Source: a virus. From it: a stretch of 30,682 nt of DNA. The translations under genes were made by a program, and so were the position numbers. The DNA is taken from positions 1 through 30,682 of the IMG/VR virus record IMGVR_UViG_3300002835_009731. One strand, given 5' to 3'. Positions 1-29,695 of the stretch are shown here, one piece after another. The stretch's first letter is position 1. The number at the start of each line of letters is the position of its first letter. The notes under the pieces are model-generated. The model was not told where the DNA came from and made no database searches. It saw only the letters and a program-made list of their open reading frames with translations.

Positions 1-982
<982 letters not shown>

Positions 983-986
<4 letters not shown>

Positions 987-3301: not shown

Positions 3302-3310
3302 AACATGTCC

Positions 3311-4069
3311 TTATTTGTCGTAATAAAAATATTCAGTTAAATCTGTTGTTTCCTCTATATTTGGCCCGCTCCAAGAAAATGTTAAATTGTCGCCACCGGC
3401 AGCTTCTCTATGAACAATTCTAATTGGATAAAAAGTATTACCAGTTAAAAGAATTGATGCGCTTTTTTTAGTGCTGCCTTGGCTACCAGTAACATTATTG
3501 TTTAATAGCGCATTAGTTATATTTCTGCCAACATCTATTTCAGCAAGAACCCCAAGCCATATGGCGCTTCCATCATCACTAGCTGTTGAAAATGTATACG
3601 TTCCATTAACTGGTGGTCTAAAATAACCAAAAGCCATAAAACTAAAATAGTCTCCACCGGCATTATTATAGCTAATATTTGACAGAACAATACCATTAGA
3701 TATTGGTAAGCTGATTCCAACATTACCCTCACTTATAGTTAATATAGAATCGCTACTCATATTAAACTTACCCTTAAGTCCACCTAATACATATAGTGGA
3801 TTAATAGTTGTGGTAGTAGTTGTGGTAGTCGGTGGGGCTAAAATTATTGGACAAGCTTTGCCACTTACTGGAATCACAATAAGATCAAGAAGATCTGGAT
3901 CGTATGGGGCAAAAGTAGTAGTGTTAGTAGTGGTCGTTGTGGTCGTTGAAGCTTTTTCGTTTGGTAAATCTAAATATGGCCTAGTTGGAACATCTAGTAG
4001 TGGGTCGTGTTTTTTGCCAGCTAATTTTGGCCGCTGGCAATCCTCATTAATAAAGCAGTCTTCGTTCAT
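3311..4069 (-). CDS. PA14/GLEYA-type domain adhesin with polythreonine linkers
   Basis: 252 aa. Two Thr tracts (about residues 42-50 and 81-88) precede a C-terminal domain of about 150 residues with typical PA14/GLEYA features: FRPPVNGTYTFSTASDDGSA, then IWLG, a variable segment, YPIRIVHREAAGGDNLTFSW and a closing WSGP. PA14/GLEYA domains are beta-sandwiches that often bind glycans, with Asp residues of the DDG loop coordinating calcium; that loop is present here. The N-terminus has paired Cys motifs (EDCFINEDCQ). No clear Shine-Dalgarno precedes the ATG; a TATAAT-like sequence lies just upstream on the minus strand. It sits between two other appendage genes and is probably a glycan-binding tail or fibre component. 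Confidence 0.85.
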   Translation of the reverse strand: MNEDCFINEDCQRPKLAGKKHDPLLDVPTRPYLDLPNEKASTTTTTTTNTTTFAPYDPDLLDLIVIPVSGKACPIILAPPTTTTTTTTINPLYVLGGLKGKFNMSSDSILTISEGNVGISLPISNGIVLSNISYNNAGGDYFSFMAFGYFRPPVNGTYTFSTASDDGSAIWLGVLAEIDVGRNITNALLNNNVTGSQGSTKKSASILLTGNTFYPIRIVHREAAGGDNLTFSWSGPNIEETTDLTEYFYYDK

Positions 4070-8267: not shown

Positions 8268-9275
8268 TTAGAATGAGCCTAGGATCACTCTGCGGTTGTC
8301 TAGAACACCAAAGCCAAGCTCTGCAAAGCCGTAGTAACCGGCGCGCTGCTGACGATGAAGAGTGGGGTCTTCAAACACCTGTAGCTGCTCCTTAACTGGC
8401 ATAACAAAACTGTCTCTTGTGGAGAGGTCAAGACCAACGACGAGTTCAAGGTCGCTAGCTTGCACTGTACCACCAAGTTCGTTCACGAAGAACGACTGAT
8501 ATTCTTGACCTTCGCCTAGTTCATCTAGGTCACGTAGATTCACACCGAAGATACGTGTGATTGGAGCGCCGCCTGTTGCAGCGGTATAGATCTCACGACG
8601 AGTTGTTTCGTCAACTTGATCAAAACCCCAGTTACGAATATCTTCTAGAGCTTCTGGTGACACGTAGATGTCTGTTAGACGGCCACGGCCAAGTGAAGCG
8701 GAGTTACCACCACTATTACGACGCATGACAGTTTGCATTAGCGAAACTAGTCTCTTGCTGAATAGACCGGCAGTTGCATCACCGTCATAGACGAGGATAT
8801 TGCGGTCAACGCCAGCGGCGAGAAGAGTGTGCCAACCGTCATCGTTCATCTTCTTGGTAAAACCAGCTTCCATCACCTGCATTGCGCGAGCAACGATATC
8901 CCATCTGGCTTCGCGGGCATAGCGAAGAAGATAGTCAACCGATGAAGCGATTGAGTAGGTGGGGATCATCACGTAGTCGCCTTCCACACTTCGCTCTGGA
9001 ATTCTACCGTGGCCGGGGTTGGTGTAAGCGACATGCTCACCTTCAAGGCCGGGAGAAACTAGGTCGAGTGGGAATTCGGTTGTTGAACCGGCTTCCACGT
9101 TGATGGTTTCGAAAATGTCACCAAGAATGTTACCAACTAGAACGCCCTTACGAAGAGGAAGCTCTAGAGCCTTGGCAAACTCACGTTGAGCAGCCGCAGC
9201 TACATTGATATCAGCATCCCCTGACTTGCGTAGGAGACTGATAAATTCGTCACTAGGTCTTTTGTTTTCTGGCAT
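8268..9275 (-). CDS. Major capsid protein (HK97-like fold)
   Basis: 335 aa with ATG after an AAAGGAG site. It follows the decoration and protease/scaffold genes in classical head-gene order and is followed by a strong terminator. Sequence features fit HK97-type capsid proteins: a helical, charged N-terminal region (about 1-45), an E-loop-like segment (EFPLDLVSPGLEGEHVAYTN), a long spine-helix-like stretch (REARWDIVARAMQVMEAGF) and a C-terminal beta region (ASDLELVVGLDLSTRDSFV). It forms the icosahedral shell. GC content and codon use look higher than in the neighbouring fibre genes, consistent with high expression. The assignment rests on context plus overall pattern. Confidence 0.85.
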   Translation of the reverse strand: MPENKRPSDEFISLLRKSGDADINVAAAAQREFAKALELPLRKGVLVGNILGDIFETINVEAGSTTEFPLDLVSPGLEGEHVAYTNPGHGRIPERSVEGDYVMIPTYSIASSVDYLLRYAREARWDIVARAMQVMEAGFTKKMNDDGWHTLLAAGVDRNILVYDGDATAGLFSKRLVSLMQTVMRRNSGGNSASLGRGRLTDIYVSPEALEDIRNWGFDQVDETTRREIYTAATGGAPITRIFGVNLRDLDELGEGQEYQSFFVNELGGTVQASDLELVVGLDLSTRDSFVMPVKEQLQVFEDPTLHRQQRAGYYGFAELGFGVLDNRRVILGSF

Positions 9276-9795: not shown

Positions 9796-10449
9796 TCACT
9801 TACGTAGTACGTTTTCGGTTAACCACTGAGCTACACTTGCTCTGGTGGACTGAAGTTCATCATTTGCATCAGAAGCATCTACTAAAGCAGCCTCGGTTGA
9901 GCTTACACCATCAAAAAGTGTTTCAGTTACTTCTTCTGTTGTTTCTTCAGAAGCAACTACGGCAGCTTTAGGATTAGTGCTTTCGTTTTTCTCGTCCTTG
10001 GTAAGATTTTCCTTAAACTCTGATTTCTTTTCCATCTTTGCCATCTTCTTTTTGTACATGGCAACAATGGCTTCGAAAGCATTATCGTCTAAGTTTTCAT
10101 ATAGAGAAAGAGACTCGTCAGCTTCTGTTTCTTCAAAGCCAGAAGCCATGAGCTTATCCTTGCGCATTCTATTCTTCTCTTTCTTCTTCATGTTCATCAT
10201 CTCGGCGTCTTTAGCGGCGAGTGCATCTTGTAGTTCTTTGATTGCAGTTTCATGGGCCTTAAGTGTCTCTTCAAGAGCCTTAAAAGCTTCTGTTTTTTCT
10301 GTGAGGCTAGCTTCAAGTGCTGAAATTGTTTCCGCATAATTGGGAGTAACTTCTTCAACTGGTGTGCTAATGACCTCATTGGATTCTGTTGCAGCAGCTA
10401 ACTCGCTTGGAGCTTCGTTAACAATCTGCTCTAAATTGGTATCAGACAT
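9796..10449 (-). CDS. Nested in-frame scaffold protein (internal start)
   Basis: Inside the protease/scaffold frame, ATG at 10449 (residue 261, MSDTNLEQIVNEAPSELAA) is preceded by AAAGGAG with 8 bases of spacing, as good as any ribosome site in the window. It falls exactly at the boundary between protease and coiled-coil regions and would give a 217-aa free scaffold. Lambda C/Nu3 and several other phages use the same nested design. Expression from this start is inferred from the sequence. Confidence 0.65.
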   Translation of the reverse strand: MSDTNLEQIVNEAPSELAAATESNEVISTPVEEVTPNYAETISALEASLTEKTEAFKALEETLKAHETAIKELQDALAAKDAEMMNMKKKEKNRMRKDKLMASGFEETEADESLSLYENLDDNAFEAIVAMYKKKMAKMEKKSEFKENLTKDEKNESTNPKAAVVASEETTEEVTETLFDGVSSTEAALVDASDANDELQSTRASVAQWLTENVLRK

Positions 10450-11229
10450 TTGAATTTCTCCTTTAGGTACATTTAAAATAACATCGTCTTGTTTATTTAC
10501 GAGGAAGGCTCTGCTTGAATCAAGGATAATGCTTCTTGGATTAGCTGGTCTAGAAACTAATCCCTTACCAGAAAAAGAAATATCTCTTAATGATCTGCCT
10601 ACCTTGTAGCCCTCATATTCACCTGTGCCACCATAGGCTCTCAAGTGTTTAGTTAAGAATGATGATTGTTCATTCCTTGCTATGACTTTTGGATTGCCCT
10701 GTTGGTCTATTAGCGCGTAATCAAAACCCGCGAATAAACATTCCATTGAAACAAACCACTTACCTTGTTCGATTTCGTCAATGATCTTTTGCATTCTTTC
10801 CCGATTGTCGGGATTTGTCCAACTATTATATAGAACTGCTTCTGTTATAATGTCGAATTCGGTTGGTGCGGTTTCTGTGTCTGCTGCGATTGTCGCGCCC
10901 TGTCGGTCAACAACGTAACTACCAGTAATGTGTCCAATAATGTCATTTTCATTATGCATGAAATTGAATTGCTTGTCTTCTGGAGTTGTTCTAGCAGCCC
11001 AAGTTTGTTCTGGAGCAAATACATCGTCATTTTTATTCCAACCAGTTGATACCAAGATTGATTTAATATAGTATAGATCAATTTGCTTGGGGTTTGCGCT
11101 GGCTTGGATCTTATGAGCTACTTCTGGATTTGCTTCACAAACAACCGCCTGAGAGCAATAAGCGACTGTAGTATCGGCCTGAACTTTGTCAGCGACACCA
11201 TCTAACACTTCTTGTTTAAATATTTTCAT
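9796..11229 (-). CDS. Prohead protease fused to scaffold domain
   Basis: 477 aa, ATG at 11229 after GAGAGGAAATAT. Residues about 1-235 look like a herpes/HK97/T4 gp21-fold capsid maturation protease: FMHNENDIIGHITGSYVV supplies the probable catalytic His92, and GKWFVSMECLF the probable Ser161. Residues about 260-430 form a Lys/Glu/Ala-rich coiled coil (TISALEASLTEKTEAFKALE, MMNMKKKEKNRMRKDKLMAS), typical of a scaffold or prohead core. The tail is Thr/Glu-rich. It lies between portal and decoration genes, the expected place. An internal start at residue 261 has its own ribosome site (separate entry). Confidence 0.88.
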   Translation of the reverse strand: MKIFKQEVLDGVADKVQADTTVAYCSQAVVCEANPEVAHKIQASANPKQIDLYYIKSILVSTGWNKNDDVFAPEQTWAARTTPEDKQFNFMHNENDIIGHITGSYVVDRQGATIAADTETAPTEFDIITEAVLYNSWTNPDNRERMQKIIDEIEQGKWFVSMECLFAGFDYALIDQQGNPKVIARNEQSSFLTKHLRAYGGTGEYEGYKVGRSLRDISFSGKGLVSRPANPRSIILDSSRAFLVNKQDDVILNVPKGEIQMSDTNLEQIVNEAPSELAAATESNEVISTPVEEVTPNYAETISALEASLTEKTEAFKALEETLKAHETAIKELQDALAAKDAEMMNMKKKEKNRMRKDKLMASGFEETEADESLSLYENLDDNAFEAIVAMYKKKMAKMEKKSEFKENLTKDEKNESTNPKAAVVASEETTEEVTETLFDGVSSTEAALVDASDANDELQSTRASVAQWLTENVLRK

Positions 11230-11277: not shown

Positions 11278-13359
11278 TTAGGTTAAATTTTGCTCTATGT
11301 ATAAACCTAAAACACTTCGTCGGTAATTGTCAATTGGCATGTCTTCTAGCACAATGTTGTTATTTTTAAGCAGTTTTGCAAACTCTAGTGGTGTTTTAGA
11401 GTTAGATGATAATAGTTGTGCTATTGACTGTTCGTTAACTTCTTCAAAAAGAGGTAAATTAGTTAAAACATCTACTTTTAATTGCTCTAGATTATTAACT
11501 TCAGCCTTTGTTAATTGCCTAAGATTCTTTTTGTTGTTAGACTTAAGATAAGCATTAGTTAATATATCAGATAGATGTTCCCAAGAAGTTTCTGACCATA
11601 CTACTAATTCTGCAACTCCCGGCTTTGATTTTGGGTTAGCTATGCGTTGCTTTCTTGGACCTGTATCATTAGATAAAGGTGGTCTGCCATTGTTTTTGGG
11701 TGGTTTAGATTTAGGTGCCACTGGACCCGCTCCCGGAACTACGGGTTTAGGAATAAGGACATCTTTAGGAACACTAGTTTTTAGTCCAACATCTTGCGGA
11801 GTAACCTTACCGCTTTGTAGAGCAATCTTTTCAAGGTTTTGCTTATGCTTTGGATCGTGATATGGACTAGCCTTTGGAGCAGACTTGCCTTCATCTCTAG
11901 CTGATATTTCTCTCTTAAGTCTAATTTTTTCAATCTCCGGTATTTCCTTGAATCTTTCAAGAATGGTTTCATGACTAATAATATCTCTATCTGCTAACTG
12001 TATTAAGAGATTTTTTTCTGTAGCTTCATCCGACAAACTCATTTGATCAAATTGAATGTGAGCGCGATATCTAAAACCCATAGCCTTTCTGACTATTTCA
12101 ATTTCTTTTTCCCAGAATTTTACAAGCATATCTCTTCCGTACTGCAATCTTTCAACCAAAGTTTTCAGCGAAATGAAGTTATTGGTAAAGCCACCGCCAT
12201 TTGTTGCCATTCCAGTTAGGGTTGGTGGAACACCTAGTCCAGCATAGATGCTATTTAATACTGCGGTATATTTTTCTGAGCCTAAGAACTTGTAAACTTC
12301 GCTGTTTGATTCGTGGAATGATAGCTCTGGACCCCAAACTAATTCCATTGTGCCGCCACCAACGTTACTAGCTAAAATGTCTCTTAGCTTGTTAATTGCT
12401 GCTTTATTTGGAAGAATCTTATGCTCAAGACTACCAAGTGTCCAAAGACGAATATTAGAGATAGCACCATCAAGTGCAGATAGGTCTGCTAGTCTCATCT
12501 TTTCTAACATGATAATATCATCTAGAATAGCATAAATCATGGGGTTAGCCCATTGTAGCCAATCGTCCTTCTTGTAATGAAATACGCTTAGTCTAGATTG
12601 ATCTAGAGGTATTTGCTTTTCCCCTCTCTGGAGGCTTTGTTTAATAGCTGGCGGTAATGTATCAAGAACTGTGCTTGGGATATCGCCATTTGGGAACTTG
12701 TCCAAGAATGTATTAGCTGATAGAGTATAGTCTTTCGCACCCATGAATAATGATAGATTACCGTTTATCATTTTAACAGTCATTGGATTGAAGAAGTTGT
12801 AACGCCAAGGGATTTGGTTTGCTGGAACTGTTGGAACATCAACTCTAATATCCTTAGACAAAGCCTTCATATACTTTGTTAATTCTGGAGTCATATTAGC
12901 ATAGCTACGATAAATAATAACATTGCCAGCTTTATAGAGATTATTTAAGAATCTCTCTGACCTTTCTTTACCATTGACGCTCCTGAACCACTGCTGGTAG
13001 AACTTCTCTACGCTGCTATTTTGGTGAACTATTTCTATGCCTTGGCTACCAAAATCGCCCATGAGATCAATAATATTTCTAATAATACCAACTTTATCAT
13101 AAGCATCCATGCACATTTTAATAGCGCGGCGCTGTTGGTGTGGAACGGCCTCATCTGGACGAAAAGCATAATAATCACTAGGATTAAATCCGGGTTTTAC
13201 AGTTCTATTAGGTTCAATATCAGTGAAGTTACGATAATGATTTCCTTGAGCTTTGGGTAAGCCGACATATGATGAGATATTATCTGAAAATTTAGCAAAA
13301 GCATCGGTTTTGCTGGATGCGTCATCGTCATTCCACGTTATCATTTCTTCATTGCTCAT
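11278..13359 (-). CDS. Portal protein
   Basis: 693 aa. The long alpha/beta protein lies between large terminase and prohead protease. Portal-type features include AYDKVGIIRNIIDLMGDFG near residues 85-105, KFYQQWFRSV, LYKAGNVIIYRSY, WLQWANPMIYAILDDIIML (clip/stem region), VWGPELSFHES, and the conserved turn NSIYAGLGVPPTLTGMA before a long C-terminal helix (TLVERLQYGRDMLVKFWEKE). Residues about 490-600 are Pro/Lys-rich and probably disordered. The dodecameric portal is the DNA entry channel and the docking site of terminase. The length is within the usual 450-750 aa range. Confidence 0.9.
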   Translation of the reverse strand: MSNEEMITWNDDDASSKTDAFAKFSDNISSYVGLPKAQGNHYRNFTDIEPNRTVKPGFNPSDYYAFRPDEAVPHQQRRAIKMCMDAYDKVGIIRNIIDLMGDFGSQGIEIVHQNSSVEKFYQQWFRSVNGKERSERFLNNLYKAGNVIIYRSYANMTPELTKYMKALSKDIRVDVPTVPANQIPWRYNFFNPMTVKMINGNLSLFMGAKDYTLSANTFLDKFPNGDIPSTVLDTLPPAIKQSLQRGEKQIPLDQSRLSVFHYKKDDWLQWANPMIYAILDDIIMLEKMRLADLSALDGAISNIRLWTLGSLEHKILPNKAAINKLRDILASNVGGGTMELVWGPELSFHESNSEVYKFLGSEKYTAVLNSIYAGLGVPPTLTGMATNGGGFTNNFISLKTLVERLQYGRDMLVKFWEKEIEIVRKAMGFRYRAHIQFDQMSLSDEATEKNLLIQLADRDIISHETILERFKEIPEIEKIRLKREISARDEGKSAPKASPYHDPKHKQNLEKIALQSGKVTPQDVGLKTSVPKDVLIPKPVVPGAGPVAPKSKPPKNNGRPPLSNDTGPRKQRIANPKSKPGVAELVVWSETSWEHLSDILTNAYLKSNNKKNLRQLTKAEVNNLEQLKVDVLTNLPLFEEVNEQSIAQLLSSNSKTPLEFAKLLKNNNIVLEDMPIDNYRRSVLGLYIEQNLT

Positions 13360-13401: not shown

Positions 13402-15399
13402 CTAATACACATCTTTCATTTGATCTGCAAACCAGCTTGGTCCAGTATAAAGTTTTTCGTTTTCATAGGAAGGCTTATCACCGCCACCTCTGCCAGTTGC
13501 AAAGCCACCATAGAAGTTGTAAGCTTCTTGTTCTGGAGTTCTCTGCAATACTCTAGCGGCCATATTGGCCATTAAAAGCGCGGAATATCGGTCTTTACGC
13601 ATCTTGCTCTTTTTACCAGTGCCAACAACAACTTCTGGGGTATCCCACCTATCTCTACCATTATTAGTCTGAGTCATTTGTATCATAGAAAGCTCATCTT
13701 TTAATTCTTCAATATCCATAACGCACTCTTCTAATGTATCAAACATCCTGTGCTTAATATCGTCTTGAGCATTTGATAGACCTAAACTAACAGCGTCAAA
13801 GAATGGAAACAATAAAACTTTATCCTCAAAGTCTTTTCTCATTCCGTGATTTGCTTCTGATAACCATTCGTACTTGGCAAATTGGCACATCTCTATAATA
13901 TGCAAGCCGCGTTCGCCGTCAGTATCTTTTGGTTTATCATCATCAATTGTAGGCCACATGGGAAGCTCTCCCGGCTTTATTTTATCTTGATCGTGCAGAG
14001 ATTCTGTTACAGCAACACCACCACCTTGAGCGTCGATAGCGATATGTACGCACGGGTATAGTAACATTAAGTCTCTTATTTTTCTTGCGCAATAAGAATA
14101 GAAGTCAGTTTCATTAGAATACCCCTTCTTGACTTTCTCTTTATGTTCTGACCTTGTGGTGGTCCAGCAATGTACAATTCTTCTGTGATCTGGATTTACT
14201 TCAAGCACAACAATGCTAAAATTATCTACTTCTGAAGCTGGGTCAACACCAAAGATATATTTTTTATTTGGATCGCCAATTAAATTAGCTTCGAAATGGA
14301 TTGGAGTACCCTTGCTATCTTTGATCTCATTCTCTTGAGAGATAACGCAAGACTCAATTAATGATCTCTTAAAGAATCCTTGGCTGTCTCTTGTGAAACA
14401 TGCGCCGTATTCCATTTGGTAAATACCAGTATGTACAGTAGCTTTTGATCTAGCAACTTGGTCTGCATCCATGAAACCCTTTGGTAATAACTCGTATGGC
14501 ATACGTATGATTGAATATTGAGTCCAATCAAAAGTTTCTGGATAATCTTCGCCACCAAACACTTCTCTTAGTTTAGCGGGATTGCCTTGACTCTTAATGA
14601 TAGCTTTCCATTTTTTCCAGTAAGTTGCAAAATGATTAAAATCATAATATGCCGTGCCAGATAACACGATCTGGTTATCTTTAGATTGTCTTGAAGAAGA
14701 CTTATCATCTTCTATTATAATTCCTAATTCTTCTGCTTTTTGTTTTGCAGCAAGACGTTTAACATTTGCCACTGGATCAGCACTAACTGCGGCGAAACCA
14801 GCAACAACGTTTTCAAAAATATCTCTAGGAATAGAAGCAAACTCATCGCTGATAATATCATTGGCTCTTTGACCTCTAATTTTTTGACCATCACCAAGTG
14901 GTAAACAAGTAATAGTGCTTTCATTAAGCCTCATTACGCACCTATCTGTATCTCGTCTTGGTCCGCTGTCGGCATCGCATATATCCCTTAACATTGGAGA
15001 ATTGCGCCAAATAGTTTCCATGTATTCGAAAATAACCTTGGACTGCCTAAACGCTGCACCAACAACGACGATCTTTCGTCGCGGTAAAACCAAAGCTCTA
15101 AGCATAGCGTATAAAGATAGCATGAAAGACTTACCAAATCCTCGGCTAGCAATAAGCATTGGAAATTTTCTATTCCAAACTTCATCTAGCACTAAAGCCT
15201 GAGATGGTAATAGCTGAACGTTTAAGATGTGATGACAAAAAAACGATAGATACTCTGGCCTAGTCATAAGCCAAGCGAGTTTCAAATGAAAGTCATCTTC
15301 GCTTGGTCGCAAGATGCTCATTGGGTTAAATAGATCTGTATCTACAGAATCTAGCCCAAGCCAAGCCTCATCTATTTTTTTGAGTTTAGCTTCACTCAT
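13402..15399 (-). CDS. terL: Terminase large subunit
   Basis: 665 aa from ATG at 15399, chosen over an upstream in-frame ATG at 15432 because it overlaps the ClpP-like stop by 8 bases (ATGAGTGA) and a GGAATAGGA sequence precedes it. The ATPase domain has Walker A ASRGFGKS (about residues 84-91) and Walker B DIISDE (about 181-186). The RNase H-like nuclease domain has YIFGVDPASEVDNFSIVV and CVHIAIDAQGGGVA, giving metal-binding Asp residues. It cuts concatemeric DNA and pumps it through the portal encoded next. Strong assignment. Confidence 0.95.
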   Translation of the reverse strand: MSEAKLKKIDEAWLGLDSVDTDLFNPMSILRPSEDDFHLKLAWLMTRPEYLSFFCHHILNVQLLPSQALVLDEVWNRKFPMLIASRGFGKSFMLSLYAMLRALVLPRRKIVVVGAAFRQSKVIFEYMETIWRNSPMLRDICDADSGPRRDTDRCVMRLNESTITCLPLGDGQKIRGQRANDIISDEFASIPRDIFENVVAGFAAVSADPVANVKRLAAKQKAEELGIIIEDDKSSSRQSKDNQIVLSGTAYYDFNHFATYWKKWKAIIKSQGNPAKLREVFGGEDYPETFDWTQYSIIRMPYELLPKGFMDADQVARSKATVHTGIYQMEYGACFTRDSQGFFKRSLIESCVISQENEIKDSKGTPIHFEANLIGDPNKKYIFGVDPASEVDNFSIVVLEVNPDHRRIVHCWTTTRSEHKEKVKKGYSNETDFYSYCARKIRDLMLLYPCVHIAIDAQGGGVAVTESLHDQDKIKPGELPMWPTIDDDKPKDTDGERGLHIIEMCQFAKYEWLSEANHGMRKDFEDKVLLFPFFDAVSLGLSNAQDDIKHRMFDTLEECVMDIEELKDELSMIQMTQTNNGRDRWDTPEVVVGTGKKSKMRKDRYSALLMANMAARVLQRTPEQEAYNFYGGFATGRGGGDKPSYENEKLYTGPSWFADQMKDVY

Positions 15400-16030
15400 T
15401 CCTATTCCAATCCGTGAGTATCGCGTCTGCAAATCCGTAATAGACTGCTTCTTCTGCGTTCAAATACCAATCTCCAGATTTCAGCTTTCGAATAAGATAT
15501 TGCTTAACTTGTTTTTCGCTGGGCTTCTTGCCAAACTTGTCCTTAAAGAACTGCCCCTCTACGCATCGCTTTGCATATAAATCAAACATAACGCTAGCGC
15601 ACCTTCGTTCATAATCAACAAAGTTCTGAACACTTAGATAATCTGAACCAACCGCCGTAGAACCATAGTGGCTCATAAAATATGAATTAGGAGTCATATA
15701 TCGATAGTCTGCTGATTGTAGTATAATGCTACTCATTGACTCTGCTTGTCCATAGACTATAATGCTAACATATGATCTACACATTGCTATAGCATCAAAA
15801 ATAGCCATACCATCTGGCCATTCTCCACCAACACTTTGCATATGTATTGTGATTGGATTATTATTTCTAAGATCTAACGCTCTAAGGTTTTTAATAAAAG
15901 TGTTAGACATTCTGTATTCAACGCCGGGGTTTTGATTATCTTCAGCGTGATAATGGTTATGTAGAAAGATTTCTCTGGTGTTAATATTGGCACCATAGTC
16001 GTGAAAATCTTTCAGAAGTTCTGGTTCCAT
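15392..16030 (-). CDS. ClpP-like serine protease
   Basis: 212 aa from ATG at 16030, which has GGAAGGAAAA 6-9 bases upstream; a longer frame to 16117 overlaps the nuclease gene and lacks such a site. ClpP-fold motifs: PITIHMQSVGGEWPDGMAIF (strand and loop), GQAESMSS with nucleophile Ser98, PNSYFMSHYGS with His121, and GDWYLNAEEAVYYGFADAI with Asp187. These match the ClpP Ser-His-Asp triad in order and spacing. Phage ClpP-like proteins are often capsid maturation proteases, but the His/Ser protease fused to the scaffold already fills that role here. This one could act on other substrates or on host proteins. Confidence 0.9.
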   Translation of the reverse strand: MEPELLKDFHDYGANINTREIFLHNHYHAEDNQNPGVEYRMSNTFIKNLRALDLRNNNPITIHMQSVGGEWPDGMAIFDAIAMCRSYVSIIVYGQAESMSSIILQSADYRYMTPNSYFMSHYGSTAVGSDYLSVQNFVDYERRCASVMFDLYAKRCVEGQFFKDKFGKKPSEKQVKQYLIRKLKSGDWYLNAEEAVYYGFADAILTDWNRNE

Positions 16031-16031
16031 G

Positions 16032-16526
16032 TTAAGTTTTCCTTCCAGTTGTGTACATTTCATGAACTCGCTTAAGAATGCTACTAACAGCCAAGAATCC
16101 GTTGTATTTATTTCCACAGAAAATAACCTGTACGTTGTTATATAGTGCGAATTCGAACAAGCATTTCATCATATACTTGCCCGTGATTTTGACTGATGCT
16201 TTGTTTTTTAATGGTATCCTAGTTTCTTCTGGGAATTTTGCCAATTCTTCAAAGGTAAATTCTAGAACTAGAAACTTGTGAGGGAATGGCTTCATGCGCT
16301 CTATTTCGTCTAGGAAAGCGTACTTCTTTTGACCCAGATTTGTAGCCAATTCTTCTACGCAGCCCTTGCGCTCTATACATATTTTGTCTTCTAATCCCTC
16401 TATAGAGTAGTCGCCGGTATCAAGCTTACGCTCAATCATCCCACCACAAGTATTATAGTCTTTAAAGTAATATCCGTCTTGTTCGCGGGTATCTTTGATG
16501 ACCATAAATTTTTTAGTTTCACTCAT
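16032..16526 (-). CDS. ERCC4-type (XPF/Mus81) nuclease
   Basis: 164 aa. The compact ERCC4 nuclease domain covers nearly the whole protein: VIKDTREQDGYYF (first Asp), LDTGDYSIEG, and the catalytic ERK of KICIERKGCVEEL, followed by YAFLDEIERM and VLEFTFEELAKF. There is no helix-hairpin-helix tail, so it is smaller than cellular XPF. Known relatives cleave branched or flap DNA; a role in trimming replication or recombination intermediates before packaging is plausible. The start overlaps the HNH gene stop as ATGA. Confidence 0.88.
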   Translation of the reverse strand: MSETKKFMVIKDTREQDGYYFKDYNTCGGMIERKLDTGDYSIEGLEDKICIERKGCVEELATNLGQKKYAFLDEIERMKPFPHKFLVLEFTFEELAKFPEETRIPLKNKASVKITGKYMMKCLFEFALYNNVQVIFCGNKYNGFLAVSSILKRVHEMYTTGRKT

Positions 16527-16783: not shown

Positions 16784-17028
16784 AATTGTGCTATTTTATC
16801 TATTCTCATGTGTTTTTTAATTTTTTTGCATAGTATTCTAGTTTTAAGCGACGGGTCTTGATCCATTAACAATTTCATTAATTTAATAAGCACAGTATAA
16901 CAGGCATCATCTGGGTCGTTTGCTTCTACGAAAATCAATGAAAATGGTAAACTATATTCTCTAAGGGAAAAGCTTTTAAGCTCTATGTATAGGTCTGATA
17001 AATCTATTGACAGTCTAAAGTTTCTCAT
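16780..17028 (-). CDS. Hypothetical protein
   Basis: 82 aa, not recognised. It has an N-terminal amphipathic beta/alpha pattern (FRLSIDLSDLYIELKSFSL) and a basic C-terminus (TRILCKKIKKHMRIDKI). Its start lies 14 bases inside the end of the dehydratase gene and its stop overlaps the HNH start as ATGA, so it is translationally coupled and probably real. Confidence 0.65.
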   Translation of the reverse strand: MRNFRLSIDLSDLYIELKSFSLREYSLPFSLIFVEANDPDDACYTVLIKLMKLLMDQDPSLKTRILCKKIKKHMRIDKIAQL

Positions 17029-18076
17029 TTCCGTTAAGTAGCATAAGCTTAATTAAGCCCTCTAGATCGTGGCTGGGCGTCCACCCTAGCTTTTCCTTGG
17101 CTTTCTTAAAACTCCCTTTCAGATATGTGACTTCAGATGGTCGATAAAACTCGGGATCTATTACTATATAATCTCTCCAAGCCGGTAAGCCTAGAGAGTT
17201 AAAGGCTATATCTAAAAATTCAGCTACGGTGTGCGTTTGTTCTGTGCATACTACATAATCGTCTGGATGCTCTTGCTGTAACATCAACCACATGGCCTCT
17301 ACGTAGTCACCAGCGTAGCCCCAATCTCTATACGTGTCTATGTTGCCAAGTCTTAATTTTTTAAAGCTCATGCCTTGTACTGGTCCATAAATGTAGTCTC
17401 CAGATGGACACATGTGTTCTGGCTTTATTTCGTATTTGTGCATCCAAGATGAGAAGTCTTTTATCCAGTTGGTTATCTTTTTGGTCACAAAGTTATCACC
17501 CCTTCGCGGGCCTTCGTGATTAAATAATATTCCGGCACTTGCATGTAAGCTATATGCGTCCCTGTACATTCTTACAGCATAATGAGCGGCGCATTTTGCA
17601 ATGGCATATGGAGAATTCGGCATAAACTTGGTATTTTCATCTTGATATTTATTACCATGATTGTCAACATCATAAGAACTACCAAACATTTCGCTGGAAG
17701 AAGCTTGATAAAATCGTGCGCCAAACATATGACAGTCAACGATTCCTTGTAATAGGTTGATACAACCCTTGCCAGTAATATCCCAAGTAAGGGCTGGTTG
17801 CTTAAATGAAGTTCCAACATGCGATTGTGCGGCTAGATTATAGATTTCATCTACATCGTCGTAATTTCTAAAGATATTAATTACACTACTTACATCCGTA
17901 ATGTCGCCTTCGACCAGCTTGAACCTTTGTGATCCTTCTAGGTGCTTTATTCTTTGAGTATTATCTGTGCTGGTTCTTCTTGAAACCCCAATAACATGAT
18001 AATCCTTTGATAGTAAAAGATCTGCGAGATGGCTTCCATCCTGTCCGGTTACTCCAAATATAATTGCACTTTTCAT
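17015..18076 (-). CDS. gmd: GDP-mannose 4,6-dehydratase
   Basis: 353 aa from ATG at 18076 (AAGGAAAA just upstream; overlaps the methyltransferase stop as ATGA), chosen over a longer frame to 18157. Extended short-chain dehydrogenase: nucleotide-binding GVTGQDGSHLADLLL, NADP-type GVSRRTS, NLAAQSHVGTSF, catalytic SSSEMFG and YAIAK (Tyr-x-x-x-Lys), NHEGPRRGDNFVTKKIT. These match Gmd closely. It converts GDP-mannose to GDP-4-keto-6-deoxymannose, precursor of fucose, rhamnose or perosamine sugars. In a phage late operon it may serve virion glycosylation or alter host surface glycans. Start, length and motifs are intact. Confidence 0.93.
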   Translation of the reverse strand: MKSAIIFGVTGQDGSHLADLLLSKDYHVIGVSRRTSTDNTQRIKHLEGSQRFKLVEGDITDVSSVINIFRNYDDVDEIYNLAAQSHVGTSFKQPALTWDITGKGCINLLQGIVDCHMFGARFYQASSSEMFGSSYDVDNHGNKYQDENTKFMPNSPYAIAKCAAHYAVRMYRDAYSLHASAGILFNHEGPRRGDNFVTKKITNWIKDFSSWMHKYEIKPEHMCPSGDYIYGPVQGMSFKKLRLGNIDTYRDWGYAGDYVEAMWLMLQQEHPDDYVVCTEQTHTVAEFLDIAFNSLGLPAWRDYIVIDPEFYRPSEVTYLKGSFKKAKEKLGWTPSHDLEGLIKLMLLNGNEKL

Positions 18077-18684
18077 TTGTTTTTCCTTAGTATTGCTACC
18101 CATAGTCCATTCCACCAATTTTCTAAGTCGCCATTTCCGTTTGCTGGCAAATCCCACTCTTTAACAATAGAGAGATTTTTTGATTGTATCGCTCTTGATG
18201 TTCCATTTTTAACGTCGGGCCAATTCCAATCGTCGCACATGTATATAAATTCATCGTCCATGTTGTCATAGTAATATTCTATAGCTTTGAATTGACTAGA
18301 TTCTAAATGGCAACCGTCGTAGAAGTATATGTTGAATTTTTTTGATTGTAATTTGTCTTTAGTAGCGAAAGAGTCAGAGTTAATAAATTCAAAAGGAACT
18401 CCAACATCGTTTAAATTTGCCTGAAATATTTGTTCACTTCCTTCAAATTGTGAGAAGTTATCTATTGCAACGGCGAACTGAGGAGAATTACCATATAGTG
18501 CTGAATAAAAAGTTGCACCCTGCCACACACCAATTTCTAAATACCTAGCATCTGGTATCTCAAGAAGTTTGTTAAGAAAATTTCGAACCTTAAAGCTAGA
18601 CATGCCACTCATTTGTAAAGCTTTTTGATTCAGCTTAGTATTTTGATCTACTGTGAATAGTGAACGTTGAACTTGCTCTATCAA
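18073..18684 (-). CDS. Class I SAM-dependent methyltransferase
   Basis: 203 aa with a TTG start at 18684 behind AAAGGAG; the downstream ATGs are less well placed. Motif I YLEIGVWQGATFYSAL, then FAVAIDNFSQFEG (acidic end of strand 2), FNIYFYDGCHLESSQ and FIYMCDDWNWPDV fit the Methyltransf_24/sugar O-methyltransferase class. It overlaps gmd as ATGA, so the two are co-translated, which suggests the methyl group goes onto a sugar nucleotide or glycan made with GDP-deoxymannose. The substrate is inferred from the neighbour only. Confidence 0.82.
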   Translation of the reverse strand: MIEQVQRSLFTVDQNTKLNQKALQMSGMSSFKVRNFLNKLLEIPDARYLEIGVWQGATFYSALYGNSPQFAVAIDNFSQFEGSEQIFQANLNDVGVPFEFINSDSFATKDKLQSKKFNIYFYDGCHLESSQFKAIEYYYDNMDDEFIYMCDDWNWPDVKNGTSRAIQSKNLSIVKEWDLPANGNGDLENWWNGLWVAILRKNK

Positions 18685-20868: not shown

Positions 20869-20887
20869 ATTAGAATCTCCTCATGGT

Positions 20888-20916
20888 ATTATACACTCTT
20901 AGACGAAATGTAGCAA
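20888..20916 (-). promoter_or_regulatory. Promoter of the minus-strand late operon
   Basis: Minus strand TTGCTA, 17 bases, TATAAT (20893-20888), about 20 bases before the first ATG at 20868. This is the best sigma70-like site on the minus strand, and it also holds the GTGTATAAT form shared with candidate late elements. Confidence 0.65.
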
Positions 20917-20959
20917 AAAATATGGTTTTTTATTGGAGGTTGTTGTATTATATATTAAG

Positions 20960-20992
20960 GACGTAACTCTAAAAACAAGAAGGGACTCTCAT
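20960..20992 (+). repeat. Possible degenerate single 33-bp unit at the divergent region
   Basis: GACGTAACTC at 20960-20969 is identical to the left arm of units at 23702 and 24568; the right arm (GGGACTCTCAT) is poorly conserved. It lies between the diverging subtilase and late operons. It could be a decayed relative of the six modules or a chance match. Confidence 0.3.
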
Positions 20993-22196
20993 GTTACATT
21001 TTGAACAATTAAATTCTAGACAAATGTTGAGTTTGAATACGTGGGGTTTAGAGCAAATTAATCTACATTTAGCTCATACTATAACAAGAGGATCGCCAGA
21101 TATCGTAGTAGCAATTATTGATAGTGGAATGAATACTAAGTTGGGTAATGTGTGGGTAAATAAAGGCGAGATTGCAAACAACGGGATTGACGATGAGGGG
21201 AACGGATATATAGATGATATAAATGGATGGAATTTTGCAAATAATACAAACGACCCTACAGATAAATATGGGCATGGAACGCATGTTGCTGGCATCGTGG
21301 CTCAAGTTGCTCCAACAATATCTATAATGCCACTAAAGTTTCTAGATGATAGAGGAGTGGGAAATACTGGTGGGGCAATACAAGCTATTAAATACGTTAA
21401 CATGATGAAAGAAAAGTATAATGTGAATATTGTCGCTGTAAATGCTAGCTGGGGTGGTGGTACAGGATTTTCAAATATGCTATATCAAGAAGTAGAAAAT
21501 CTTAATAAGAATGAGATTATGTTTGTTGCTGCGGCTGGTAACTCTGCTAGGAACACTGATTTAACTCCATCATATCCTTCATGTTTTCCGTCTAATAACG
21601 TAGTGAGCGTGGGTGCTTTGGGCTACTACAGTAAGAACAATCTAGTGGGGTTTTCTAATTATGGAAAGAATAGTGTGGACTTGGCATCTCCGGGTAGTGT
21701 GATATATAGTACATTACCAAATAATAGATATGGATATTTAAGCGGAACAAGTATGGCTGCACCATTCGTAACTGGCACAATTGGACTCATGAAGAGTGCA
21801 AATCACAGTATGACGATAAGTGAGATCAAGATGGATCTGTTAAGTAGCGTGAATTTGTTACCATCCTTAACAGATAAAGTAGTGTCGGGCGGGGTTTTAG
21901 ATGCTAATAATGCTGTGAGGTTATCAATAGATTTAGATAAAATTGATTATATTTCCATACCGGCAGAGCCAAGTGTAGTTAAAGCGACATTAACCAAAGT
22001 GTTTGGAGTAATTAAGCAGCCGTATCCTGCTGATATTTCTGTTGTGATCAACGGGCGGGAAGCTAAAACGTTTACAACTATTGGGCAGTTCAGTGAACCG
22101 TTAAGAAGGAGTATGTTTCGTAGGGGTTGGAACAATGTTGAAATATACGAGAATGGGGTACTGTTGAGTCGTATGCGAGTTAGAAGGATCGTGTGA
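20991..22196 (+). CDS. Subtilisin-like serine protease (S8) with LEPR-XLL-like N-terminus
   Basis: 401 aa, ATG after AGAAGGGA. Full S8 domain (about 30-300): Asp44 in VVAIIDSGMN, His95 in YGHGTHVAGI, oxyanion Asn184 in AAAGNSA, Ser254 in LSGTSMAAPF. All catalytic residues are present. The first residues FEQLNSRQMLSLNTWGLEQIN resemble the LEPR-XLL leader of planctomycete extracytoplasmic proteins, and TWGLEQIN is a usual start of S8 domains. No hydrophobic signal peptide is visible. The C-terminal about 85 residues form a small beta domain. It stands alone between divergent operons, like a moron gene probably acquired from the host. Possible roles: lysis, surface-layer degradation or exclusion; unproven. 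Confidence 0.93.
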   Translation: MLHFEQLNSRQMLSLNTWGLEQINLHLAHTITRGSPDIVVAIIDSGMNTKLGNVWVNKGEIANNGIDDEGNGYIDDINGWNFANNTNDPTDKYGHGTHVAGIVAQVAPTISIMPLKFLDDRGVGNTGGAIQAIKYVNMMKEKYNVNIVAVNASWGGGTGFSNMLYQEVENLNKNEIMFVAAAGNSARNTDLTPSYPSCFPSNNVVSVGALGYYSKNNLVGFSNYGKNSVDLASPGSVIYSTLPNNRYGYLSGTSMAAPFVTGTIGLMKSANHSMTISEIKMDLLSSVNLLPSLTDKVVSGGVLDANNAVRLSIDLDKIDYISIPAEPSVVKATLTKVFGVIKQPYPADISVVINGREAKTFTTIGQFSEPLRRSMFRRGWNNVEIYENGVLLSRMRVRRIV

Positions 22197-22264
22197 TGCT
22201 AATGGATTGGGTAATACATTAATGTTATTTGTTTCCTATTGTTTTTGGACCACCCCGAGGTTTT

Positions 22265-22428: not shown

Positions 22429-22456
22429 TTGACAACGCCGATATATACTGTATAAT
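22429..22456 (+). promoter_or_regulatory. Early promoter 1 (module 1)
   Basis: TTGACA, 16 bases containing CCGATA, TATAAT. Just upstream lies AAATCTGAAGATTT, a small inverted repeat also seen in part before other early promoters. Confidence 0.9.
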
Positions 22457-22493
22457 GGTAGTAGAAGAGAACGATAGAGAAAAGGATAGAAAA

Positions 22494-22697
22494 ATGGAAA
22501 AGGTTCAAAGCGTCAACGGTTTCATCAGCAGTCTCCCCAAGATTCGCAAGCGTCGAATCTGGAAGGTGATCATTAACGGTACGGTTGTTCAGGGCGTTTC
22601 CGCTTCTGACAATCGCAAAGAGACTGCACAAGCGTACATCGCTAGCAAGTATCCGGGTCAAGCTTTCACCCTGAAATTTTCTCACTGGAAAATCTAA
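22494..22697 (+). CDS. Small early protein, hypothetical
   Basis: 67 aa. I use ATG at 22494 (AAAAGGA upstream) because an earlier in-frame ATG at 22455 overlaps the -10 box and could not be in the transcript. Basic protein (SLPKIRKRRIWKVIINGTVV) with an alternating beta pattern; a nucleic-acid-binding role is possible but unproven. First gene of its block. Confidence 0.75.
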   Translation: MEKVQSVNGFISSLPKIRKRRIWKVIINGTVVQGVSASDNRKETAQAYIASKYPGQAFTLKFSHWKI

Positions 22698-22702
22698 GGT
22701 AC

Positions 22703-22731
22703 TTGACACAGGCCGACCGATACTATATAAT
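22703..22731 (+). promoter_or_regulatory. Early promoter 2
   Basis: TTGACA, 17 bases (CAGGCCGACCGATACTA), TATAAT. It begins 6 bases after the previous stop, so this small gene has its own promoter. CCGATA lies 3 bases before the -10. Confidence 0.9.
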
Positions 22732-22766
22732 AGAGAAACAAGAGAAAAGGAAAAAGGAAAAAGAAA

Positions 22767-22961
22767 ATGGTTACTTACGAAACTTGGCATACGATGAAAT
22801 TTGGCAACACTACTGCAACCTTCAAGGTTTATCGTAGTGGTGCATTTGTTATCCAGACTATCTTGCGTGATGGTAAGGATGTTACGAGTAACCTTCTCAC
22901 TAACCGTAATGTCTCTGGGTTGATTCGATTCAATGTCGCAAATAAAATTATCGACTATTGA
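22767..22961 (+). CDS. Small early protein, hypothetical
   Basis: 64 aa, AAAAAGGAAAAAGAAA leader. Beta-rich small domain (TATFKVYRSGAFVIQTILRD). Not recognised. Its TGA stop is part of the TTGACA -35 box of the next promoter. Confidence 0.72.
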   Translation: MVTYETWHTMKFGNTTATFKVYRSGAFVIQTILRDGKDVTSNLLTNRNVSGLIRFNVANKIIDY

Positions 22962-22986
22962 CAACCCATAGCCCATACTGTATAAT
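22958..22986 (+). promoter_or_regulatory. Early promoter 3
   Basis: TTGACA, 17 bases, TATAAT. The -35 contains the stop codon of the preceding gene. The spacer has CCCATA instead of CCGATA. Confidence 0.88.
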
Positions 22987-23012
22987 ATCAGCACAAGAGA
23001 AAAGGAAACACA

Positions 23013-23162
23013 ATGACCATTCAAGTACAACACACAATTCGCCGCCTTGTCGCTCGTCATGGTTATTCTGCTACATTTGTACAGCACATGGGCGAGGGTA
23101 TTTGTTTGTATAGTGTAGGCGGTATCATGTATCGCATTCGTGGCGATGGTACGATTCTCTAA
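23013..23162 (+). CDS. Small early protein, hypothetical
   Basis: 49 aa with AAAAGGAAACACA before ATG. MTIQVQHTIRRLVARHGYSA then a short beta stretch. Basic; unrecognised. Supported by its own promoter, ribosome site and tight spacing to neighbours. Confidence 0.65.
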   Translation: MTIQVQHTIRRLVARHGYSATFVQHMGEGICLYSVGGIMYRIRGDGTIL

Positions 23163-28156: not shown

Positions 28157-28230
28157 GGGTCATTAGCTCAGTTGGTCAGAGCAAGGGTCTTTTAAACCTT
28201 TGGTCGTAGGTTCGAATCCTACATGACCCA
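28157..28230 (+). tRNA. tRNA-Lys (UUU)
   Basis: Cloverleaf: acceptor GGGTCAT/ATGACCC, D arm AGCTCAGTTGGTCAGAGC, anticodon stem AGGGT/ACCTT with loop CTTTTAA, T arm GTAGG TTCGAAT CCTAC. CCA not encoded. Confidence 0.97.
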
Positions 28231-28259
28231 TTGAAATTGTTAAGGATTGTGAGTATAAT
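28231..28259 (+). promoter_or_regulatory. Promoter after tRNA-Lys
   Basis: TTGAAA, 17 bases, TATAAT, starting directly after the tRNA. No CGAT motif. Confidence 0.7.
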
Positions 28260-28303
28260 ATGAGGATGCGGCGTATTCACAAATATCAACTAAGGAGTAA
28301 ATT

Positions 28304-28558
28304 ATGTCATGGCGAGATGAATTCTTCTTCTATAAAGGATATAATTGTAGGATTGAACATGAATATGAAGAAGATAATGTCAAGGCTTGGCATATCGTGG
28401 TTGATAAAGATGGTAAACAAATAACTGCCGATATAACTCCATATGATAGTTCTACTGAAACTCTACGTTTGTGGATTGACGCTGGTATGCCTAGTCGCAT
28501 TAACAACGGACCACTTCATAGAGAAGAATTGGAGAAGATGATCTATGAGCGAGCCTAA
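28304..28558 (+). CDS. Small early protein, hypothetical
   Basis: 84 aa, AAGGAGTAAATT before ATG. FFFYKGYNCRIEHEYEEDNV, AWHIVVDKDGKQITADITPY, LRLWIDAGMPSRINNGPLHR. Compact alpha/beta domain, unrecognised. Overlaps the next ATG by 14 bases. Confidence 0.75.
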   Translation: MSWRDEFFFYKGYNCRIEHEYEEDNVKAWHIVVDKDGKQITADITPYDSSTETLRLWIDAGMPSRINNGPLHREELEKMIYERA

Positions 28559-28688
28559 TGTCTATTATATCTATAACGAATACGTGTTGGGCGACGTAGA
28601 TTATTATGAGGATATCTATGAAGAAATCGTAGAGTATGATGACTCTAACGAATGGTACAATATTGATGAAGCGGAGGCTGATGTTTGA
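28545..28688 (+). CDS. Hyperacidic small protein without basic residues
   Basis: 47 aa. 16 Asp/Glu and no Lys, Arg or His; nine Tyr (DVDYYEDIYEEIVEYDDSNE). Overlaps the previous gene, so likely translationally coupled. It resembles in composition the two acidic proteins at 26897 and 27136. Confidence 0.7.
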   Translation: MSEPNVYYIYNEYVLGDVDYYEDIYEEIVEYDDSNEWYNIDEAEADV

Positions 28689-28699
28689 GTTGCGATGGT

Positions 28700-28772
28700 G
28701 CCGATGTAGCTCAGTTGGTAGAGCGTTAGTTTTGTAAACTAAATGTCGCCGGATCGTTCCCGGCCATCGGCT
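28700..28772 (+). tRNA. tRNA-Thr (UGU), unusual T loop
   Basis: Acceptor GCCGATG/CATCGGC, anticodon stem TTAGT/ACTAA with loop TTTGTAA, T stem GCCGG/CCGGC. The T loop is ATCGTTC: A at 54 and T at 58 replace the normal T54-A58 pair. Confidence 0.92.
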
Positions 28773-28773
28773 C

Positions 28774-28844
28774 TCCGGGATGGTGAAACGGTATCACAAA
28801 GGATTTTGGTTCCTTTTTTCTACGTTCGAATCGTAGTCCCGGAA
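28774..28844 (+). tRNA. tRNA-Gln (UUG)
   Basis: Acceptor TCCGGGA/TCCCGGA (T1-A72 as usual for Gln), anticodon stem AAGGA/TCCTT with loop TTTTGGT, T arm TACG TTCGAAT CGTA. Lies 1 base after tRNA-Thr. Confidence 0.95.
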
Positions 28845-28865
28845 CTAAACACAAAGGAGGTTGAT

Positions 28866-29294
28866 ATGCTTGGTGATAATGCGGTTTATCTTGCTAAAGA
28901 AATTGAAAAACTGAATATGTATGAAGAAAGTTGCAATAGAGATGATTTTATTGCTATCATGCGTAACAATAAAGTGTTGATAACCTCTTTTTATCATGCC
29001 GTTGGTGATATGTGCGAAATGATGTTTCGCTTTGAAGCTGGTAATGATCGTGGAAACAATATGTATGGCCTTAAGGGGAAGTTTGATGAAATCTCATTTC
29101 TAGCTCACAATCTGTATTTATGTGCTAATGATGATGGTGGAATGGTGGATATATATCCAAAAAACTTCGCTAAGATAGCTGATGATCTGGAGGATATGTC
29201 TATTCGATTGAATTATGAGATTCACAACAACATGACAGTGATTAATAATTCTAGGAATAAAGAATATAGCAAGATGGAACGGGTGATGTGTTGA
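28866..29294 (+). CDS. Hypothetical protein between tRNA clusters
   Basis: 142 aa from ATG at 28866 with AAAGGAGG upstream; a longer in-frame start lies inside a tRNA. Mostly helical (NAVYLAKEIEKLNMYEESCN, FYHAVGDMCEMMFRFEAGND, FAKIADDLEDMSIRLNYEIH). Not recognised. Embedded between tRNA genes of one transcript. Confidence 0.75.
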   Translation: MLGDNAVYLAKEIEKLNMYEESCNRDDFIAIMRNNKVLITSFYHAVGDMCEMMFRFEAGNDRGNNMYGLKGKFDEISFLAHNLYLCANDDGGMVDIYPKNFAKIADDLEDMSIRLNYEIHNNMTVINNSRNKEYSKMERVMC

Positions 29295-29300
29295 TTTGAT

Positions 29301-29372
29301 TGTCCGATAGCTCAACGGTAGAGTAGGCGGCTGTTAACCGCTTGGTTCTAGGTTCGAATCCTAGTCGGACAG
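29301..29372 (+). tRNA. tRNA-Asn (GUU)
   Basis: Acceptor TGTCCGA/TCGGACA, discriminator G, anticodon stem GGCGG/CCGCT with loop CTGTTAA, T arm CTAGG TTCGAAT CCTAG. Confidence 0.95.
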
Positions 29373-29375
29373 CTT

Positions 29376-29460
29376 GGAAGAATGGCAGAGTGGTCTAATG
29401 CACCGGTTTACTAAACCGGCGACTCTAACGGGTCCGTGGGTTCGAATCCTACTTCTTCCG
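29376..29460 (+). tRNA. tRNA-Ser with rare ACU anticodon
   Basis: Class II tRNA: acceptor GGAAGAA/TTCTTCC, discriminator G, long variable arm GACTC/GGGTC, T arm GTGGG TTCGAAT CCTAC. Anticodon stem CCGGT/ACCGG with 7-nt loop TTACTAA gives anticodon ACT where bacterial tRNA-Ser normally has GCT. Confidence 0.93.
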
Positions 29461-29463
29461 TGC

Positions 29464-29536
29464 GGCCCTATCGTCTAGTGGACTAGGACACTACCCTTTC
29501 ACGGTAGATACTGGAGTTCGAATCTCCATAGGGTCA
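29464..29536 (+). tRNA. tRNA-Glu (UUC)
   Basis: Acceptor GGCCCTA/TAGGGTC (one G-T), anticodon stem CTACC/GGTAG with loop CTTTCAC, T arm GGAG TTCGAAT CTCC. Close to the bacterial consensus. Confidence 0.96.
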
Positions 29537-29538
29537 CT

Positions 29539-29611
29539 GTGGCTATAGCTCAATTGGTAGAGCAACAGGTTGTGATCCTGTAGGTTGTGGGTTCAAGTCT
29601 CACTAGCCACC
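29539..29611 (+). tRNA. tRNA-His (GUG), no encoded G-1
   Basis: Acceptor GTGGCTA/TAGCCAC, discriminator C, anticodon stem ACAGG/CCTGT with loop TTGTGAT. The base before position 1 is T, not the G usually encoded at -1 in bacteria. Confidence 0.95.
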
Positions 29612-29615
29612 TATT

Positions 29616-29689
29616 GGGAGCGTAGATCAATTGGTTAGATCGCCAGCCTGTCACGCTGGAGGTTGCGGGTTCAAGTCCCGTCGCTCTCG
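29616..29689 (+). tRNA. tRNA-Asp (GUC)
   Basis: Acceptor GGGAGCG/CGCTCTC, anticodon stem CCAGC/GCTGG with loop CTGTCAC, T arm GCGGG TTCAAGT CCCGT. D arm is TAGATCAATTGGTTAGATC. Last gene of block 5; module 6 starts 6 bases later. Confidence 0.95.
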
Positions 29690-29695
29690 TTATTT

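Follow-up and report, generated by a model that had tools for sequence, protein, structure and literature searches.

A planctomycete-type leader on an optional S8 subtilase gene in a family of uncultured phages

The window analysed here, a 30.7 kb virus record (IMGVR_UViG_3300002835_009731, all 30,682 nucleotides), carries an open reading frame whose 401 aa product starts MLHFEQLNSRQMLSLNTWGLEQ and which, judged by family and catalytic residues, encodes an S8 subtilase, its proteolysis itself being predicted. The protein opens with a leader of the kind found on planctomycete extracellular proteins, and the gene can be missing from related phages. We lean, by no great distance, towards reading it as an accessory (moron) subtilase that an uncultured tailed-phage family took from a planctomycete long ago and that would be exported through its host-type leader and act at the cell surface. 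The features of the gene are:

20980..20985, plus strand: RBS-like AAGGGA, read directly, 5 bp 5' of the ATG
20991..22196, plus strand: S8 subtilase gene, 401 aa, start at ATG 20991, AF2 model pLDDT 92.2
21000..21038, plus strand: leader FEQLNSRQMLSLN (Planc_extracel-like), from the motif in 25/25 phage homologues and PF07595 on relatives
21099..21851, plus strand: Peptidase_S8 catalytic domain, from PF00082 and Foldseek
21120..21122, plus strand: codon of catalytic Asp44, invariant in both alignments checked
21273..21275, plus strand: codon of catalytic His95, invariant in both alignments checked
21540..21542, plus strand: codon of oxyanion-hole Asn184, invariant in both alignments checked
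21750..21752, plus strand: codon of catalytic Ser254, invariant in both alignments checked
21972..22193, plus strand: all-beta domain at the C-terminus (residues 328-401), modelled by AF2 with seven strands

The window protein scored 140.7 bits against PF00082, whose cut-off is 21.8 (142.5 bits by genome search), and D44, H95, N184 and S254 showed no variation across 69 homologues, so that the S8 triad, which the first-pass annotation had already described as intact, and the oxyanion Asn are preserved. An AF2 model built from 69 sequences has a subtilisin fold followed by the seven-strand beta domain, with the leader disordered (pLDDT <50 for residues 1-13). Its top Foldseek match, and the closest solved structure, is deseasin MCP-01 (PDB 3vv3; TMt 0.87, 40% identity), a bacterial enzyme from Pseudoalteromonas that was compared as its catalytic domain only; the same protein was the best match in a comparison with solved structures (E 4.7e-57). 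For the C-terminal domain, which as modelled is probably Ig-like, Foldseek gave a phage Ig-like domain as a weak match. Most S8 homologues have an AAGGAC/AAGGGAC-type sequence upstream of the gene.

Two viral-contig scans and a terminase scan recovered the combination of leader and S8 domain in 39 viral contigs, from which a non-redundant set of 25 phage proteins was drawn (window included; 34-100% identical). All 25 have the relaxed motif at the N-terminus, and eight have the strict form ExLExRxLL, as in VESLENRKLLS, VEYLENRQLLS, IENLENRSLLT, FESLESRRVLS, VERLESRHVLS and IERLDSREMLS. The window leader, FEQLNSRQMLS, meets only the relaxed form (EQLNSRQML), with N in place of the second E and M in place of L relative to the PF07595 consensus, and appears to be a drifted form close to the IERLDSREMLS of contig L097. 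In a nine-sequence alignment, leader positions E5, L7 and L13 are invariant and the linker (residues 14-40) has no invariant column. PF07595 matched four of six tested phage leaders with 12.5-18.6 bits, so that even the best (18.6) stayed under the 25.5-bit cut-off; these low scores do not count against the phage leaders, because a true planctomycete homologue, L237, also reached just 14.8 bits. Conservation among homologues is the decisive support, and at sequence level confirms that the window leader is real and of planctomycete type. The identification made from the window alone was borne out by the 25 homologues and by PF07595 on relatives; its more specific label, LEPR-XLL, did not hold, since NCBIfam model NF012209 found nothing in related phages and PF07595 is the model that matches.

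The phage leaders resemble Planc_extracel (PF07595) in their N-terminal position, their E-x-L-E-x-R-x-L-L core and the extracytoplasmic-type enzyme behind them, and differ from it in a short N-terminus, a frequently absent RR pair and sub-threshold scores. With LEPR-8K (NF012209) and LEPR-XLL proteins they share the LExR-x-L core, yet NF012209 had no match in any of 15 records from related phages, even at E values as high as 10, and their N-termini matched none of the NCBIfam leader models. Over the full length of three records, two of them large and one of 49 kb, the leader heads the S8 gene. Two further open reading frames picked up by a regular expression (L172 at 11464 and L185 at 15896) were chance-like and were rejected as leader-bearing secreted proteins.

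The ExLExRxLL leader has been regarded as a putative export signal since 2004, and we know of no export machinery assigned to it. For Rhodopirellula surface proteins the consensus RRLxxExLExRxLLA was given by Studholme et al. (2004), as quoted in PMC8567305; in Tuwongella, eight of 20 detected motif proteins were confined to the Tris/SDS-soluble fraction S3 (PMC8567305), and the PF07595 entry presents its motif as a presumed new export signal. This published work makes leader-driven export plausible, not proven. Across many phyla, 79 bacterial S8 relatives were compared (L018, discussed below, being set aside), and the leader was found in 6/11 planctomycete proteins versus 0/68 others (Fisher p 1.7e-6). 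Most of the best S8 loci in one planctomycete family carried it, and it was seen in none of the best eight Verrucomicrobiota S8 loci, several of which stop short of the protein N-terminus. The leader is nevertheless not strictly exclusive to one phylum, because PF07595-type starts reading LVENLEPRFMLSGEG, above cut-off, head giant proteins of 12-15 thousand aa (L325, L326) in two of 60 Pseudomonadota genomes; the same whole-genome scan gave 2/59 Planctomycetota and 0/59 Verrucomicrobiota, counts with too little power for phylum specificity. Given these giant proteins, the name of PF07595 (planctomycete extracellular) is too narrow. LEPR-XLL proteins have also been published for Vibrio and Limnohabitans.

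An S8 phylogeny, proposed in the first-pass annotation as a check, placed two leader-bearing planctomycete proteins as the nearest cellular relatives. In the last two trees the phage enzymes formed one clade of 17 sequences (99% SH-aLRT) that joins planctomycete S8s L073 and L237 (leaders LEYLENREMLS and LESLENREMLS) with SH-aLRT of 89 and 95%, values from quick searches that amount to moderate support. The first tree placed L073 beside a divergent phage sequence, L118, which may represent a lineage separate from the other phage S8s. With the same phage query, the best planctomycete-sample S8 scored 308 bits versus 281 for the best from Verrucomicrobiota; best-hit score therefore fails to discriminate Planctomycetota from Verrucomicrobiota, while tree and leader do separate them. 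The capture, previously proposed to be recent, is instead judged to be old because the phage enzymes fall to 34% identity to that of the window; the phage clade is diverse (34-100%), and its members are only ~40-50% identical to any cellular S8.

The planctomycete leader-S8s (L073, L237, L017, L198 and most of L218-L235) belong to the same subfamily as the phage enzymes (~40-52% identity) and differ in architecture. They have a propeptide-like segment of ~100 aa or more and often extend far beyond the core at the C-terminus (with fn3 repeats in L073), whereas the phage form has neither and finishes with a short beta domain. Leader and core are at least ~110 aa apart in the planctomycete homologues, where the propeptide-like segment has no Pfam match, compared with ~20 aa in the window and ~0-2 aa in the L010 group. 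The phage enzymes thus appear from their sequences to lack this segment, the leader sitting directly on the predicted mature enzyme. Other S8 cores are likewise encoded by phages, namely phrog_3677 and those of Bacillus phages (SP-15, the Goe group, vB_BcoS-136), but these are at most ~40% identical to the window enzyme over the core, and all leaderless S8s in viral contigs are ≤39% identical to it.

The subtilase gene is optional and forms a one-gene accessory cassette, set among these features:

20896..22202, plus strand: single-gene accessory cassette (subtilase), absent in L246, which has ~50 bp instead
13402..15432, minus strand: terminase large subunit in the divergent late block (phrog_2, 94 bits; 53-98% in relatives)
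17015..18157, minus strand: GDP-mannose dehydratase-like epimerase, a backbone gene (phrog_540; conserved in relatives)

Contig L246 aligns at ~90% identity up to 20895 and at 88% from 22202, both flanks being adjacent there, and the S8 gene is also missing from the majority of the remaining close terminase relatives whose sequence extends far enough to judge. As far as position 20883 the DNA of contig L097 matches that of the window without a difference; beyond it, an S8 allele of 68% identity occupies the site of the window gene. Contig L002 has a backbone ~70% identical and an S8 protein 91% identical to those of the window. To judge from these comparisons, the pattern looks like allele exchange at the S8 gene. 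The abrupt change of identity at 20884 suggests a recombination hot spot or a strain-chimaeric assembly, the latter because L097 ends soon past the breakpoint. Terminase, epimerase, sigma-like and other backbone genes keep their order among the relatives, and records of this phage family reach ~240 kb. The S8 gene runs opposite to the leftward late block. A promoter-like TTGAC-N-TTTTCTGATA lies 5' of many S8 genes, the window copy having no clear form of it, and since the same motif also precedes small rightward genes, expression together with the accessory genes is suggested.

Three other features of the window were recorded. Within 22429-23015, one small rightward gene after another is preceded by a strong TTGACA/TATAAT promoter with AAGAGAAAAGGA-like sequence after it, a recurring arrangement of early promoters. 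Poly-threonine linkers (TTTTTTTT) occur in three consecutive leftward structural-type genes (1-50 and 3-4069), and the contig end falls inside such a trinucleotide repeat, which is probably why the assembly breaks there. Lastly, eight tRNA genes are clustered at the right end (28157-29690).

As to the host, leader and S8 ancestry make a planctomycete the best inference and a probable one. The infection of a planctomycete, as earlier proposed, is favoured by these two lines; it drew no spacer-like or prophage match from a comparison of 14.9 kb of the window with 296 genomes of one planctomycete order, a comparison of low power that returned conserved coding motifs only, and the leader on which it leans is not phylum-exclusive. 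A DNA match between the window gene at 9796-11229 and planctomycete contig L243 was rejected as a sign of a related phage, as L243 encodes no related protein; the match is confined to a charged, coiled-coil-like stretch. A search of 50,697 phage records returned nothing related to the putative capsid and portal proteins (8268-9275 and 11278-13359, assigned by position); the window terminase had distant relatives only. A contig binned in a Gammaproteobacteria MAG (L176/L018, RGPR01000093.1) belongs to a phage and scarcely differs from viral contigs L114/L115, and probably reflects binning contamination of a public genome; its near identity to L115 rules it out as a bacterial S8 or as host evidence.

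Could the likeness be accidental or convergent, the leader being no more than an ordinary N-terminus? The window protein matches neither PF07595 nor any of the NCBIfam leader models, as such a reading would expect, but the relaxed motif arose in 88 of 200,000 shuffles of its first 60 residues (a figure for the window alone), and its recurrence in every homologue, with PF07595 on four of the six tested, has already refuted this very remote explanation. We also consider it unlikely that the host lies outside the planctomycetes, for instance in a proteobacterium that also has LEPR/ExLExR leaders, the S8 gene having crossed phyla and the leader carrying little host information. The giant Pseudomonadota proteins, the published Vibrio and Limnohabitans proteins and the same-family contig L018 in its Gammaproteobacteria MAG all point that way, and the near-equal Verrucomicrobiota score (281 vs 308 bits) counts against the favoured reading; set against a host of this kind are the absence of leader-S8s from the 68 non-planctomycete relatives and the best eight Verrucomicrobiota loci, and the planctomycete affiliation of the nearest cellular S8s, while L018 is one misbinned contig and weak as evidence.

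A different function for the protease is a more doubtful proposal: that it is a virion or intracellular enzyme, either a tail part or a processor of phage or host proteins, with the leader a functionless inherited tail. Bacillus phages, among others, are known to encode S8 enzymes, some of them annotated within structural proteins, and the window leader has drifted from consensus. Against this, the leader is better conserved than the linker behind it and is kept by all 25 homologues, the gene is optional and points away from the structural genes, and at 15392-16117 the window already has a ClpP-like head protease.

Under the favoured reading, that of an exported accessory subtilase, the phage lineage would long ago have captured a planctomycete S8 gene and kept its leader and mature catalytic domain, with loss of the propeptide-like segment. 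Orientation and upstream motif suggest that the gene would be transcribed with the rightward accessory genes and not with the late structural block. From the known association of the leader, an uncharacterised export system of the host could recognise ExLExRxLL and deliver the enzyme to the envelope or beyond it, where it might cut host surface proteins. Such cleavage could benefit the phage by loosening a protein-rich envelope at lysis, or by removing receptors and so blocking superinfection. Planctomycete envelopes are protein-rich, and a surface protease would therefore be a sensible phage tool. Planctomycete cysteine-rich cell-wall proteins are discussed in PMC8567305.

Phages of planctomycetes are hardly known, and a full-text literature search on them found no relevant paper. 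A leader joined to a mature protease, with almost nothing between, is a compact natural construct suited to asking if the leader by itself suffices for export, and the combination of leader and S8 domain offers a marker by which uncultivated viral contigs could be screened for candidate phages of planctomycetes. The wider picture can be offered only tentatively: these may be large planctomycete phages with an exchangeable subtilase cassette, which would hijack LExR export to place a propeptide-less enzyme where it could remodel or digest the protein-rich host surface during infection.
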